From: Aliicoccus persicus
GTDB lineage: Bacteria; Bacillota; Bacilli; Staphylococcales; Salinicoccaceae
Reading direction: 5' to 3'
Assembly: GCF_900110815.1 (NCBI RefSeq)
Contig: NZ_FOIT01000001.1
Location: 293,910-357,909 of the forward strand
DNA: 64,000 bases
Part shown: piece after piece, positions 6,306 to 12,620 of the stretch
Position numbering within the stretch: position 1 is the first letter of the stretch
Layout: every line of letters begins with the position of its first letter
The notes under the pieces: model-generated
Databases searched by the model: none
What the model was told of the DNA's origin: nothing
What the model saw: the letters and a program-made list of their open reading frames with translations, nothing else
Position numbers and translations under genes: made by a program

Positions 6306-9011
6306 ATGAGTAAAACAGTAAAAGATTTGGCGACGAAAACATTAACAGTAGACGGCAAAGACTACACTTTTTACAGTTTGAAAGATGCAGTAACAAATGG
6401 TAGCGAATCGATCAAAAAGTTACCTTACTCAATTCGTGTATTATTAGAATCTGTCATTCGTCAGTACGATGGCACTGTAATTAACAAAAATCATGTGGAT
6501 ACGTTAGCGGCATGGGCGGACGGAAACTTGGAAGGAAATGAAGTACCTTTTAAACCATCACGTGTTGTACTTCAAGACTTCACAGGTGTTCCAGCTGTCG
6601 TAGACTTGGCATCACTTCGTAAAGCGATGAGTGAAGCAGGTGGGGACGTTCAAAAAATTAACCCTGAAGTGCCTGTAGATCTCGTTATCGACCACTCAGT
6701 ACAAGTCGATGAGTACGGTACTCACACAGCATTACAACGCAATATGGAATTAGAATTCGCACGAAACAACGAACGTTACGAATTTTTAAGATGGGCAACA
6801 AAAGCATTTGATAACTACCAAGCAGTACCACCAGCAACAGGTATCGTTCACCAAGTGAACATCGAGTACTTAGCAAATGTTGTTCATGTGAGAGATGAAG
6901 ATGAAGGTTTAGTGGCTTACCCAGATACACTAGTCGGTACAGACTCACATACGACGATGGTTAATGGTATGGGTGTACTAGGATGGGGTGTCGGTGGTAT
7001 TGAAGCAGAAGCAGGAATGCTTGGTCAACCATCATATATGCCTTCGCCTGAAGTAATCGGTGTGCGTTTGAAAAATGCATTACCTGAAGGTGCAACTGCG
7101 ACTGATTTAGCACTACACGTTACAGAATTACTGCGTAAAAAGGGTGTTGTCGGCAAATTCGTTGAGTTCTTCGGTGATGGTGTCACAAACTTACCACTTG
7201 CTGACAGAGCGACAATTTCAAACATGGCACCAGAATATGGTGCAACGTGTGGATTCTTCCCAGTGGATGATGAAACATTAGATTACATGCGTTTAACTGG
7301 TCGTTCAGAAGACCATATCAAAGTGGTTGAAGCATATTTAAAAGAAAACGATATGTTCTTCTCACCAGATGATGAGCCAGTGTATACAGATGTAATTGAG
7401 TTAGATTTGAAAACTGTCAAACCAGCACTTGCTGGACCGAAACGTCCACAAGATTTAATTTACTTACCGGATATGAAAAAAGAGTATCGTAAATCTGTCA
7501 CAGCTAAAAGTGGTAACCACGGACATGGTCTAGATAAAAGCGAATTTGATAAAGTTGCGACAGTTGATTATGCTGACGGTTCAAAAGGCGAGATTAAAAC
7601 AGGTGACCTAGTCATCGCTGCGATCACGTCTTGTACGAACACGTCAAACCCGTACGTTATGCTTGGTGCAGGTTTACTTGCGAAAAAAGCTGTAGAAAAA
7701 GGATTGTCTGTGCCTAAACATGTTAAAACGTCACTCGCTCCGGGTTCTAAAGTTGTAACAGGCTATCTAGAGGACTCTGGTGTGCAACAATATTTAGATA
7801 CACTTGGATTCCAACATGTTGGATATGGTTGTACGACATGTATCGGTAACTCTGGTCCATTAAAGCCTGAAATTACGAAAGCTGTTGTTGATGAAGACTT
7901 ACTTGTTTCATCAGTACTTTCTGGTAACCGTAACTTTGAAGGTCGTATTCACCCACTCGTTAAAGCAAACTACTTAGCATCACCACCACTTGTTGTTGCT
8001 TATGCACTTGCTGGGACAGTGGATATCGACTTGCAAAAAGAACCGATTGGTACAGATAGCGAAGGTAATGATGTTTATCTTCATGAAATTTGGCCATCAC
8101 AAGATGAAATTAAAAAGGCTGTTCATGAAACGGTAACACCTGAATTGTTCAAGAAGGAATATGCAAATATCTTTGATTCGAATGAAACATGGAATGCGAT
8201 TGAAACGACGGATAATCCTTCTTATGACTTCAATGATGAATCAACATATATTCAAAACCCTTCATTCTTTGAAGACCTATCACCTGAACCGAGCACGGTT
8301 CAGCCATTGGATGACTTGAAAGTGTTGCTAAAACTTGGTGATTCAGTGACAACTGACCATATTTCACCAGCTGGTGCAATCGGTAAAGATACACCAGCTG
8401 GTAAATGGTTGATTGAGCAAGGTGTTTCACCACGAGACTTTAACTCATACGGATCAAGACGTGGTAACCATGAAGTGATGGTACGTGGTACGTTTGCAAA
8501 CATTCGTATTCGTAATGAAATTGCACCAGGTACAGAGGGTGGATACACGACGTATTGGCCAACTGGTGAAGTGATGAGTGTTTATGACGCATCATTAAAA
8601 TATCAAGAAGACGGTACAGGACTTGTTGTTATTGCCGGCGAAGACTACGGTATGGGATCAAGTCGTGACTGGGCTGCGAAAGGTACAAACCTTTTAGGCG
8701 TTAAGGCTGTTATTGCAGCAAGTTACGAAAGAATCCACCGTTCAAACTTAGTATTCATGGGTGTATTACCACTTGAATTTTTAGATGGTGAAGATGCTGA
8801 GACTCACGGATTAAAAGGTGACGAATCATTTGATATTCAAATCGATGAAGGTGTTAAACCTGGAGAGACGGTAGAAGTCGTAGCAGAGAGCCCAGATGGC
8901 GAGAAGAAATCATTCAAAGTTAAAGTGCGCTTTGACTCTGATGTTGAAGTCGATTATTATCGTCATGGTGGTATACTCCAAATGGTATTACGTGATAAAC
9001 TAAAAGCATAA
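6306..9011 (+). CDS. acnA: Aconitate hydratase
   Basis: Aconitase interconverts citrate and isocitrate in the citric acid cycle using a [4Fe-4S] cluster. The three cluster cysteines are visible at residues 443 (SCTNTSNP), 509 and 512 ([10 protein letters not shown]). The 901-residue length and the C-terminal swivel domain ([32 protein letters not shown]) are typical of the AcnA/CitB type, which in Bacillus also binds RNA when iron is scarce. AGGAGG lies 9 bases before the ATG. A good promoter and a CcpC-like dyad upstream suggest citrate-responsive control. A strong terminator follows, so it is monocistronic. Confidence 0.97.
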
Positions 9012-9024
9012 GTTTTAATATGTA

Positions 9025-9057
9025 AGCGTGTATTGATACATTCAATACACGCTTTTT
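9025..9057 (+). terminator. Terminator of acnA
   Basis: A 12-bp perfect stem (AGCGTGTATTGA with its complement), a 5-base loop and TTTT follow the acnA stop codon by 13 bases. Confidence 0.9.
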
Positions 9058-9077: not shown

Positions 9078-10157
9078 ATGACACTGAAAATAGCAATATG
9101 TGGTGCCGGTAACGGTGGTGTATCCGCGGCGCTTGAGATGACAGAGCGCGGCCATGAGGTAACAATTTACCATAGTCAGGGATATTCCAAAGGACTCGAC
9201 AATTTAAGAGAGAAGAACACGGCTGATTTAAATGGTAAATCAGTCACATTTCATAAGTTTACTGTGGATCCAGCCGAGGCAGTAAAAGATCAGGATGTCA
9301 TTATGCTGACGATACCCGCAACGGCTATTGAAGATGTTGCGCGCGAAATTATTCCGAGTCTTGAAGAAGGGCAGCTGATTTATATTAACAGTGCTGCTGC
9401 TATGGGTGCGCTTAGATTTAGAAACACGATGGATAAAATGAACGTGCATACAAATGTTTTGGTGGGAGAGTCGATGAGCCTCACATATGCATCACGCTAT
9501 GACAGAGAGAAGAATGCGGCGACGATTTTCGGCCACAATAAACATAACCTGTTCAGTGCATATCCTGCGGCGGACACAGGTGCGATGCTGGACGTTTTAT
9601 CAAAGATGTACGACTACCTGGTGCCGGCTAAAAATATTGTTGAAGTCGTATTGAATAACGGGAATCCCGAGAGCCATCCGGGCCCGAGTATATTAAATGC
9701 CGGACGGATTGACTATGCGGGTGACTCGTTTTACCTATACAGCCAGGGAATGACCGAGCACACGATTAATGTTGTGCACAGTATTGATAAAGAGCGTCAG
9801 GAAATATGTGCGAAACTCGGCTTTGAAGTGCTGGATAAGTCAGCGCGAAGCGTGCGTTCAGGCTATTTCGAAGACGGTAAAACATTGCTCGAGCAGTACC
9901 ATACGTCACCGTTGTTGAAAGACCTGCTCGGCCCTACAAATTTAGAAAATCGCTATATTACAGAAGACGTCTCGAACGGTTTGGTGCTCTGGGCGAGTAT
10001 CGGTGATACAATCGGTGTCGATACACCAACGATGGATTCGGTCATCCAGCTGACAGGCGTGTTGTTAAATCGCGATTACTTCGATATCGGCATGACGCTA
10101 GAAAAACTCGGCATTGACGTAGATTCTGCAAAATCACTGAATGCGTTGATGGAATAA
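9078..10157 (+). CDS. NAD(P)-dependent octopine/nopaline dehydrogenase family protein
   Basis: The protein (359 residues) starts with a Rossmann motif (ICGAGNGGVSAALE) and continues with the helical C-terminal domain of the octopine/nopaline dehydrogenase family, including SHPGPSILNAGRI. These enzymes join or split an amino acid and a 2-oxo acid by reductive condensation; the actual substrate cannot be read from sequence. GGAGGGG 8 bases before ATG 9078 decides the start, because the upstream in-frame codons lie in the acnA terminator. The codon usage is G+C-richer than acnA (32 of 60 bases in one hand-counted line against 24 of 60). A YfcC-type carrier follows, so the pair may handle an amino-acid-like compound. 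Confidence 0.7.
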   Translation: MTLKIAICGAGNGGVSAALEMTERGHEVTIYHSQGYSKGLDNLREKNTADLNGKSVTFHKFTVDPAEAVKDQDVIMLTIPATAIEDVAREIIPSLEEGQLIYINSAAAMGALRFRNTMDKMNVHTNVLVGESMSLTYASRYDREKNAATIFGHNKHNLFSAYPAADTGAMLDVLSKMYDYLVPAKNIVEVVLNNGNPESHPGPSILNAGRIDYAGDSFYLYSQGMTEHTINVVHSIDKERQEICAKLGFEVLDKSARSVRSGYFEDGKTLLEQYHTSPLLKDLLGPTNLENRYITEDVSNGLVLWASIGDTIGVDTPTMDSVIQLTGVLLNRDYFDIGMTLEKLGIDVDSAKSLNALME

Positions 10158-10167
10158 GAATATATCT

Positions 10168-10214
10168 AATACATTTACAGATGGACTATATCAATCTGTA
10201 AATGTATTATTTTT
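10168..10214 (+). terminator. Terminator after the opine-dehydrogenase-like gene
   Basis: AATACATTTACAGAT pairs with ATCTGTAAATGTATT over an 11-base loop and is followed by ATTTTT. It separates the dehydrogenase from the downstream carrier, so each may have its own promoter. Confidence 0.75.
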
Positions 10215-10293
10215 GCATAAATTCCAATTTAATCTTAATCCGTTTCTAATATATGTTATATTTGATAAACCACTATCACTCAGGAGGTTAGAT

Positions 10294-11724
10294 ATGACGA
10301 ACAATTTAGATAAATCTTCTATGAACGAAGTTCAGCCGGATAACAGTAATGATAATAAGTCGTTGAACCCTTTTACGATGTTATTCTCATTTACGATTAT
10401 CGTGGCCATACTTACATATATTTTACCCTCTGGTCAATACGAGCGGGAAGAAGTAGACGGTAGAACCGTCCTCGTTAACAATTCTTTCGAATTTACAGAT
10501 CGTACGATTTTAGGTTTCTTCGATATTTTCACAAGCTTCCACGAAGGTTTAATGAATGGTGCTGCGATTGTGTTTACCATTTTCATCTTCGGTGGCGCAA
10601 TCGGTATCATGAAGAAGACCGGCGCACTTGATTCTTTTATCAAAAAGATTGTAGTGGTGTTTAAAGACTCAGCTATTTTAATTATTCCGGTGCTTGTCTT
10701 ATATTTTGGGTTACTTGGCTCATTAATCGGTACAGCGGAATCGTCGATTGTGTACCTGCCATTAATTATTCCGGTGATGATTGCGCTCCGTTATGATGCG
10801 ATTACTGCAGTAGCGGTTGTGTTTTTAGGGGCACTTGCCGTTGGATTTACTTCTGCGATCTTAAACCCATATACAGTCGGAGTAGCGCAGGAGATTGCAG
10901 AGCTCCCTTACATGTCAGGATGGGAATTCCGTATACCTATTTTCATTACGTTTTATGTAATTGTTGTCTCGTACATTATGATTTATGCGCGGCGCGTCAA
11001 GAAGAATCCGGCGCTTGGTGACTACGGTAACTATTCACCGGAAGATAATCAGGATATCAATTGGGATTTCAAAATGTCCCGGACACACGCGGCTGCACTG
11101 TCAGTTTTCGTTGTGGCTATTTTAAGTTTAGTGACTGGTGTCGCATTATTTGGATGGGGCCTGCAGCAGATTGGGGCAGTGATTCTGTTTGCCGGTGTCG
11201 CGATGGGTGTTATCTGTCGCTTACATCCAAACGCAATTGGTGACGGATTTGTACAGGGTGTGAAAGATATCTCAACAGGTGCACTCGTTGTCGGTTTCGC
11301 ACTTGCGATTGTTGAAGTGATGCAGCGTAGTGATTTGCTTGACGTTATGCTGTACTACTCAGCGAACTTACTTGACGGTTTACCGGTCGAGCTTGCTGCT
11401 GTCGGGATGTTCATCACGCAGTTATTTATTAACCTGCTTGTGCCGTCAGGATCAGGTCAAGCCGCACTGACAATGCCGATCATGATACCTTTGTCAGATT
11501 TACTCGGTGTGACACGTCAAACTGCAGTCATTGCATTCCAGCTCGGTGACGGATTATCAAACGTAATCATACCGACGTTCGGTGTCCTGCTCGCATCACT
11601 GTCGATGGCCGGGGTATCGTATATGAAGTGGGTGAAGTGGCTGTTGCCGCTCTTTATAATACTCGTTGTCGTTGGTGCAGGATTTGTCGTGCTCGCCCAA
11701 ATGATCGAACTCGGACCTTTCTAG
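10294..11724 (+). CDS. YfcC/DcuC-family carboxylate or amino-acid carrier
   Basis: This is a 476-residue integral membrane protein of the YfcC group (C4-dicarboxylate anaerobic carrier fold). It has some 12 hydrophobic segments, and the family motifs LGSLIGTAESSIVYLPLIIP in the first half and NLLVPSGSGQAALTMPIMIP in the second. Members include arginine/ornithine and dicarboxylate carriers, so the substrate is open. CAGGAGG 6 bases before ATG 10294 fixes the start; the frame upstream is not conserved. Its codons share the higher G+C of the adjacent opine-dehydrogenase-like gene, suggesting the two arrived together. Confidence 0.8.
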   Translation: MTNNLDKSSMNEVQPDNSNDNKSLNPFTMLFSFTIIVAILTYILPSGQYEREEVDGRTVLVNNSFEFTDRTILGFFDIFTSFHEGLMNGAAIVFTIFIFGGAIGIMKKTGALDSFIKKIVVVFKDSAILIIPVLVLYFGLLGSLIGTAESSIVYLPLIIPVMIALRYDAITAVAVVFLGALAVGFTSAILNPYTVGVAQEIAELPYMSGWEFRIPIFITFYVIVVSYIMIYARRVKKNPALGDYGNYSPEDNQDINWDFKMSRTHAAALSVFVVAILSLVTGVALFGWGLQQIGAVILFAGVAMGVICRLHPNAIGDGFVQGVKDISTGALVVGFALAIVEVMQRSDLLDVMLYYSANLLDGLPVELAAVGMFITQLFINLLVPSGSGQAALTMPIMIPLSDLLGVTRQTAVIAFQLGDGLSNVIIPTFGVLLASLSMAGVSYMKWVKWLLPLFIILVVVGAGFVVLAQMIELGPF

Positions 11725-11748: not shown

Positions 11749-11778
11749 AGAACTCTGCTGTATTGGCAGGGTTCTTTT
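11749..11778 (+). terminator. Terminator of the YfcC-type gene
   Basis: AGAACTCTGC pairs with GCAGGGTTCT (one G-T pair) across 7 bases, followed by TTT. Confidence 0.75.
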
Positions 11779-11873: not shown

Positions 11874-12461
11874 TTACATAAACTTAATTTTGTGTTCAGT
11901 GCCTGCTTTAATTCGTTTAAAGTTAGAAATATGTTTCGTTATGACAAGTATGGCCACAAGAATTGATAGAATAATCATTAACCAATCTTGAAGGAACAGC
12001 GACGCAATAACAAAAGTGATTGCAGCAACACTACTCGCAACAGAAACATATTTAGTTAGTTTTAGCGTGAGAAGGAATGCTGATAATAATACAAGAAACA
12101 ATATTGGATTAAAGCCAAGTACAGCACCACCGCTCGTTGCGACAGCTTTACCACCTTGAAATTTTATAAAAATAGAAAAGACATGACCAATAGCTGCGGC
12201 TAATCCAAATAAAAATACATGAAAATACTCCGGTGCCAACCAATATCCTAAAAGTACAGGTATTGTTCCTTTAAAAAGATCTAACACGAGAATGACGATA
12301 CCCGCTTTTTTTCCAAGAATTCTGAATGCATTTGAAGCACCTAAATTTCCACTACCATGACGTCTGAGATCTTTGTTAAAAAAGAATTTACCAATGATTA
12401 AGCTAAATGGTATTGAACCAATTAAATAACTGACAATGAGTAGCAAAATAATTTCTATCAA
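11874..12461 (-). CDS. plsY: Acyl-phosphate:glycerol-3-phosphate acyltransferase PlsY
   Basis: PlsY transfers the acyl group of acyl-phosphate to glycerol-3-phosphate, the first step of phospholipid synthesis, at the membrane. Five hydrophobic segments and the family motifs GSGNLGASNAFRILG and HVFSIFIKFQGGKAVATSGG are present. The start is a TTG at 12459-12461, because GGAGGT lies 6 bases upstream and the product (195 residues) then matches the family N-terminus. A longer frame with ATG at 12509 has no such support. It is transcribed away from parE, as in Staphylococcus. Confidence 0.93.
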   Translation of the reverse strand: MIEIILLLIVSYLIGSIPFSLIIGKFFFNKDLRRHGSGNLGASNAFRILGKKAGIVILVLDLFKGTIPVLLGYWLAPEYFHVFLFGLAAAIGHVFSIFIKFQGGKAVATSGGAVLGFNPILFLVLLSAFLLTLKLTKYVSVASSVAAITFVIASLFLQDWLMIILSILVAILVITKHISNFKRIKAGTEHKIKFM

Positions 12462-12620
12462 TGATATACCTCCTTTATTATCAGGTACTAACATATTATC
12501 ATAAAGCATAAAGTTTAAGTAGTAGAAACAAAATAGGTTATAATAATATTATTATGTAAACTTTTGAGTTGAAAAAATTTATGTTATGATTATTTGCGAT
12601 TATCATAATGTTAGATTTTT

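Follow-up and report, generated by a model that had tools for sequence, protein, structure and literature searches.

A dehydrogenase and carrier gene pair between acnA and plsY of Aliicoccus persicus, probably a recent arrival from a near relative

How did an opine dehydrogenase gene and a carrier gene come to lie between acnA and plsY in Aliicoccus persicus, and do the two act together? The window, by which we mean the whole stretch of 64,000 nucleotides analysed, lies on contig 8 of a 2.06 Mb genome. Its genus is represented by one genome and its family by 33, with Salinicoccus, Lacicoccus, Jeotgalicoccus, and Nosocomiicoccus as named relatives. The left boundary gene, outside the insertion, is the aconitase gene acnA (6306..9011, plus strand), recognized from the ORF list and its orthologues; within the family, the C-terminal parts of these share 77-80% identity with it. 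A terminator-like hairpin of acnA follows at 9024..9054 (plus strand; consensus scan and folding). The opine dehydrogenase (ODH) of 359 aa, identified by Pfam, PDB, alignment, and fold as a CENDH/ArODH-type enzyme of the lineage we call ODH1, runs from the ATG at 9078 to the stop at 10157 on the plus strand, with a terminator-like hairpin behind it at 10167..10209 (plus strand; repeat arms and folding). The DcuC/YfcC-type carrier of 476 aa occupies 10294..11724 on the same strand (Pfam, NCBIfam, tree, and fold) and is followed by a third terminator-like hairpin at 11749..11775 (plus strand; folding). Its best start is the ATG at 10294, preceded by AGGAGG; the mechanical ORF starts upstream at TTG 10213. 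On the minus strand, plsY (11874..12509; ORF list and family loci) is the right boundary gene, and parE and parC come next. An earlier sequence-only reading had named the two inserted genes as an octopine/nopaline dehydrogenase-family enzyme and a YfcC-type carrier, and Pfam confirms both: PF02317 scores 136.5 bits (cut-off 30) over ODH residues 184-328, the alpha-helical substrate domain, and PF03606 (DcuC) scores 302.4 bits (cut-off 23.1) over the whole length of the carrier.

The junction itself is unusual. Of 29 further plsY loci fetched from the same family, 28 also contain acnA. The two genes are 2,862 bases apart in the window and 65-365 bases apart in 27 of the 28; the one exception, G020, has a gap of 1,334 bases. 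The site is without ODH and carrier in all 28, so that the insertion shows the sporadic presence associated with islands. Among nine genomes from other families of the order, acnA lies near plsY in seven, with neither gene between them, and does not fall within the 1.5 kb flank of plsY in the other two. The expectation, previously drawn from Staphylococcus, that acnA and plsY lie close together without the two genes is thus borne out, and no examined relative shares the insertion. A search for marks of a mobile element found no tRNA in the window, no integrase or transposase ORF beside the genes, and no pair of repeats bracketing the segment, and we ruled out such an element on these grounds. 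In G020, which belongs to another genus of the family and whose acnA is 65% identical over a visible 54-residue end, the gap holds a NERD-domain gene (L119:7603-8589), a second and different insertion. Adjoining acnA, Lacicoccus- and Salinicoccus-type genomes have two divergent genes for YfcC-type carriers, flanked by folC and mscL (L110:6750-9692, L117:14320-17260); the window has no YfcC-type carrier gene at that place.

What kind of enzyme is the dehydrogenase? It carries the Rossmann NAD(P) motif GxGxxG/A as GAGNGG at residues 9-14 and matches the PDB entry 1BG6 over residues 5-354 (E 1.9e-43). The same entry, the N-(1-D-carboxyethyl)-L-norvaline dehydrogenase of Arthrobacter 1C (CENDH/ArODH), is the best fold match of the ODH model over its whole length (TM 0.89; structural alignment at 28% identity). 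The model has a mean pLDDT of 87.7, with lower values near residues 200-220. H200 and D297 of ODH align with H202 and D297 of 1BG6, which we take to be the residue numbers of its His/Asp dyad, and both are conserved in every one of 13 alignment rows. A catalytic His-Asp dyad is named in an excerpt of PMC10787698. According to the same excerpt, exchange of A111/N198 in ArODH against Arg/Gly switched the preference between L-Phe and L-Asp (PMC10787698). A107 and N196 of the window enzyme fall on A111 and N198, so that fold, dyad, and the Ala/Asn preference positions are shared, and a neutral or hydrophobic amino acid is therefore predicted as substrate. The cofactor site differs from that of ArODH, with H32/Q34 in place of D34/D36. 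Several NADPH-preferring enzymes also lack acids at these positions, with exceptions reported (PMC10787698, in part), suggesting that the window enzyme probably tolerates NADP(H).

From the 112 columns that are invariant in 26 lineage members, the window ODH departs at five places, including S107A and S111A, in each of which the window protein stands alone among 27. Two of the five departures lie within 103-112 (post-hoc P 0.022, for a range picked after seeing them), and we considered S107A/S111A as proof of altered specificity and rejected it, keeping the changes as suggestive. At position 107 the Ser of the relatives differs from the ArODH residue, whereas the window Ala matches it. The staphylopine dehydrogenase CntM (6C4R) has a related fold (TM 0.65), but the window ODH shows no sequence match to it among the Pfam or PDB results. 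A staphylopine- or pseudopaline-type enzyme was ruled out on sequence, that type not being among the six Pfam families reported. The flanks that were read, acnA and plsY, contain no metallophore-type neighbour such as a nicotianamine-synthase-like gene.

To which lineage the enzyme belongs is answered by its relatives. An orthologue is present in 18 of 18 Salinicoccus/Lacicoccus-type genomes at 61-66% identity, and in a tree of 66 rows the window ODH falls within the ODH1 clade that these form (support 98/95). It stands beside Lacicoccus with weak support (85/71) and a long-branch warning for the window ODH; a core tree built on the acnA, parE, and plsY sequences of 30 genomes sets the window genome beside the same Lacicoccus group, also weakly (76/63). 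The end branches are alike, at 0.45 in the ODH tree and 0.43 in the core tree. Identity of the ODH to Lacicoccus-type and Salinicoccus-type proteins is 64.8% and 62.1%, compared with 60.9% and 59.3% for plsY and 74.5% and 74.9% for parE. The same place in both trees and an identity between those of plsY and parE indicate that the ODH is of family stock. The phylogeny thus places within the family, not outside it, an enzyme that had been suspected of foreign origin, its divergence being about that of core genes.

Its location is what differs. Genome loci of ODH were collected with two peptide patterns, and of the 108 stretches that were confirmed the best 80 were kept, with flanks of up to 6 kb. 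In each of the 15 named ODH1 loci among these 80, the gene immediately upstream of ODH, in the same orientation, is an Amidohydro_3 gene. The window ODH lies away from such a gene; the relatives' pair lies downstream of a pyrroline-5-carboxylate-reductase-like gene, and G033, the single sister-family genome, has Amidohydro_3 and ODH in the same order. Contig 3 of the window genome carries a proC-like reductase (P5CR), Amidohydro_3, and a ParA/Mrp-type gene, with no ODH between them and a 105-base gap with a terminator-like hairpin where relatives carry ODH. The amidohydrolase there is still an open frame of 515 aa. Since no second ODH gene was found in the window genome at E 1e-10, we conclude that ODH is missing where relatives have it and lies at acnA/plsY instead. 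A donor was not found, identity never exceeding 66% among the genomes searched, and a recent distant donor was rejected after none appeared among the best 80 of 108 loci or in 398 genomes of the class. Loci outside ODH1 and a second lineage, ODH2, are at most 44% identical among those best 80. ODH2 occurs in the same genera at 52-56% identity (L162-L169, L179, L186, L195) and directly follows a gene that we label MutT/NUDIX-like from its sequence in 10 of 11 loci (among the best 80 of 108).

The carrier has a different history. Its closest NCBIfam model is YfcC, and since it reaches 293 bits against the YfcC basic amino acid antiporter equivalog (NF008611), below the cut-off of 500, we call it YfcC-like and not YfcC proper. 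Against the DcuC C4-dicarboxylate equivalog (NF037994) it scores 47 bits, below the cut-off of 100. The predicted structure (mean pLDDT 79.9) matches MtrF and YdaH best, followed by DASS carriers, and the modelled fold is of the AbgT/DASS ion-transporter kind. In a quick version of the carrier tree, which has long branches, the carrier and a paralogue on contig 7 are sisters (support 100) among carriers from other Bacilli families (98-99), and the carrier lies outside the YfcC-type carriers of its own family. For the carrier, then, the phylogeny does agree with the outside origin proposed earlier. The paralogue is 59-61% identical and has ordinary GC3, indicating that the split is old, and duplication on the spot was rejected for the same reasons. 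It lies one gene, an arginyl-tRNA synthetase, downstream of an HpaB-containing cluster (L107:253-10904), whose families (HpaB, flavin reductase, aldehyde dehydrogenase, glyoxalase/dioxygenase-type, DHDPS, FAA hydrolase, and CHMI) make a 4-hydroxyphenylacetate meta-cleavage cluster likely.

The nearest relatives of the carrier, at 46-49% identity, belong to YfcC-M20 hydrolase operons of Bacilli and C. difficile. An M20 hydrolase gene adjoins the carrier in 9 of 12 such loci, in contrast to the dehydrogenase that adjoins it in the window, and several of the loci also have an MR_MLE-type epimerase or a PALP-type or ornithine-cyclodeaminase-type enzyme. An excerpt of PMC11477304 describes a YfcC-M20D operon of C. 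difficile under a lysine riboswitch. Ahead of the window carrier, Rfam gave two matches, both at chance level and below the gathering score, and a riboswitch for lysine or another ligand was rejected there.

Is the pair a functional module? Each gene was said to have its own terminator, and folding does predict a hairpin after each. The energies are -18.6 kcal/mol for 9024-9054, -18.9 for 10167-10209, which has two 19-base arms that are 95% complementary and then a T-rich tail, and -15.5 for 11749-11775, the weakest of the three (z -2.8). The consensus terminator scan lists 9024-9054 alone among them. The ribosome site of ODH starts about 10 bases after the acnA hairpin, leaving little room for a promoter between them, and the terminator between ODH and carrier argues against one transcript. 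A YfcC-type gene lies beside ODH in 0 of 80 ODH loci with flanks of up to 6 kb (the best 80 of 108), and none of the 12 loci fetched for the closest relatives of the carrier has an ODH. Across 398 genomes of the class, where scoring was limited in most genomes to 4-5 first-look candidates each, a close ODH is present in 37 and a close carrier in 57, and both occur in the window genome only. The proposal of an acquired module does not fit these sets, in which the two genes are never co-located elsewhere, and a functional coupling rests on one genome. As far as examined, this is a lineage-specific pairing and not a conserved module; it is new within the sets that were searched, and the enzyme and the carrier are known kinds of gene. 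A search of the open-licence literature found no paper linking 'YfcC family' with 'opine'.

A comparable arrangement is found further away. Among the best 80 of 108 loci, the more distant ODH relatives have an NhaC-type carrier (PF03553) directly downstream in 43 of 54 cases; the other 11 have no NhaC next to them, one of these being at a contig end. Such pairs, from Staphylococcus, Jeotgalicoccus, and other Firmicutes, have a related dehydrogenase and then a carrier, as in the window, but their dehydrogenase is 36-44% identical to the window ODH and their carrier is NhaC-type. The order recurs in Staphylococcus loci (e.g., L122:8420-10970), where the NhaC-type carrier reaches 287 bits against an arginine/ornithine antiporter model, below the cut-off.

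Base composition bears on how the two genes arrived. As reference we took 295 genes, each with 200 codons or more, sampled from 503 kb of the 2.06 Mb genome. GC3 is at the 99.3rd percentile for ODH (GC 0.461, GC3 0.467) and at the 98.3rd for the carrier (GC 0.445, GC3 0.435), compared with the 20th for acnA and the 4th for plsY. By a Karlin-type measure of codon bias, ODH is moderately odd (94th percentile) and the carrier ordinary (79th). The claim that both genes differ from acnA and plsY in codon use thus stands for GC3, where they are in the top 2%, but for Karlin-type bias it fails for the carrier and is moderate for ODH. Orthologues of ODH in 15 relatives have GC3 ordinary for their locus, which rules out that ODH is intrinsically GC-rich, and the old neighbours of ODH on contig 3 are ordinary as well. 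That ODH and carrier are GC3-rich while the relatives' ODH and the old neighbours are not favours a recent arrival, and the GC3 shift and strand common to both genes suggest that they arrived jointly. Elsewhere in the window, an ImpB/MucB/SamB-type polymerase gene (PF00817; 18575-19894) has a GC3 of 0.491, the highest among the window's long genes and above both ODH and carrier. Genes such as this one equal the two in extremeness, which cautions against a strong reading of their composition.

We favour, at a probability of about 0.55, the reading that both genes came recently as one segment, the source being a near relative of higher GC outside the genomes sampled, that the native ODH beside Amidohydro_3 was lost, and that the carrier provides uptake and the dehydrogenase converts a conjugate. 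That the segment arrived recently from a near relative is probable. Because the divergence of ODH is that expected for vertical descent and no donor was found, it is solely composition that points to a near relative as the source. Once in place, the carrier would be ion-coupled and import an amino acid, either plain or N-substituted; more generally, it would deliver the amino acid or conjugate, or clear it. Through its H200/D297 dyad, the dehydrogenase may interconvert two states: a neutral or hydrophobic L-amino acid together with pyruvate or a similar 2-oxo acid, and the corresponding N-(1-carboxyethyl)-type conjugate. Our best guess for the role is uptake of an N-carboxyethyl-type conjugate of a neutral amino acid, with its cleavage or formation linked to NADP(H); the pair may thus serve metabolism of an N-substituted amino acid.

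Internal relocation is a strong rival, though we hold it to be somewhat improbable. Here a vertically inherited ODH would have moved from the amidohydrolase locus to acnA/plsY with no recent transfer of ODH, and the carrier would have been gained separately. The tree place of ODH, which is that of the genome, its identity of 64.8/62.1% within the plsY-parE range, and the ancestral contig 3 site empty of ODH all agree with a move within the genome. A native gene is harder to reconcile with a GC3 at the 99.3rd percentile when the old neighbours are ordinary and the relatives' ODH is not GC-rich for its locus.

The two genes might also be neighbours without a common function, ODH serving the contig 3 amidohydrolase and the carrier another pathway, as its paralogue beside the hpa-type cluster may. 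We consider this unlikely, since the common GC3 shift and strand suggest joint arrival and related dehydrogenases are followed by an NhaC carrier in 43 of 54 loci (among the best 80 of 108), even though the separate terminator-like hairpins, the open 515 aa frame of the amidohydrolase, the position of the paralogue near that cluster, and the uniqueness of the pair to one genome are in its favour. Transfer of both genes together as an island from a distant bacterium outside the family would suit the high GC3 of both and the grouping of the carrier with other families, but it is highly improbable given that the ODH1 lineage is confined to the family and one sister-family genome, with matches outside at or below 44% among the best 80 of 108, and that no integrase or tRNA adjoins the segment and no repeat pair flanks it.

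Beyond the near-relative segment that we prefer, the locus touches on a larger group of enzymes. A CENDH-like dehydrogenase is present in 116 of 157 genomes of the order at E 1e-60, and the open-licence literature yielded no described function for them, no paper linking 'opine dehydrogenase' with NhaC, and nothing relevant on opines in Lacicoccus or Salinicoccus. Two neighbouring genes of S. aureus USA300, tagged 2251 (octopine dehydrogenase) and 2250 (nhaC), appear, with values of -2.13 and -1.69, among genes changed inside macrophages in an excerpt of PMC12333996; these two genes probably belong to the dehydrogenase-NhaC pairs. Another S. aureus carrier annotated as NhaC is a histidine transporter, as stated in a portion of PMC10817146, so the label NhaC is compatible with amino-acid transport. 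It is conceivable, if doubtful, that Staphylococcales possess a non-metallophore opine branch in which CENDH-type enzymes work with interchangeable carriers or hydrolases, and that the window lineage has changed its partner and, via S107A/S111A, its substrate; the two changes would sit in the loop bearing the known substrate-preference position. If so, the interchangeable partners would be NhaC in Staphylococcus and Jeotgalicoccus, an amidohydrolase in Salinicoccus and Lacicoccus, and a YfcC-like carrier here. The window pair combines, in a single species, genes of known kinds, and the order-wide dehydrogenase-NhaC lead matters more: the substrate of one such enzyme would inform many annotated 'octopine dehydrogenases'.
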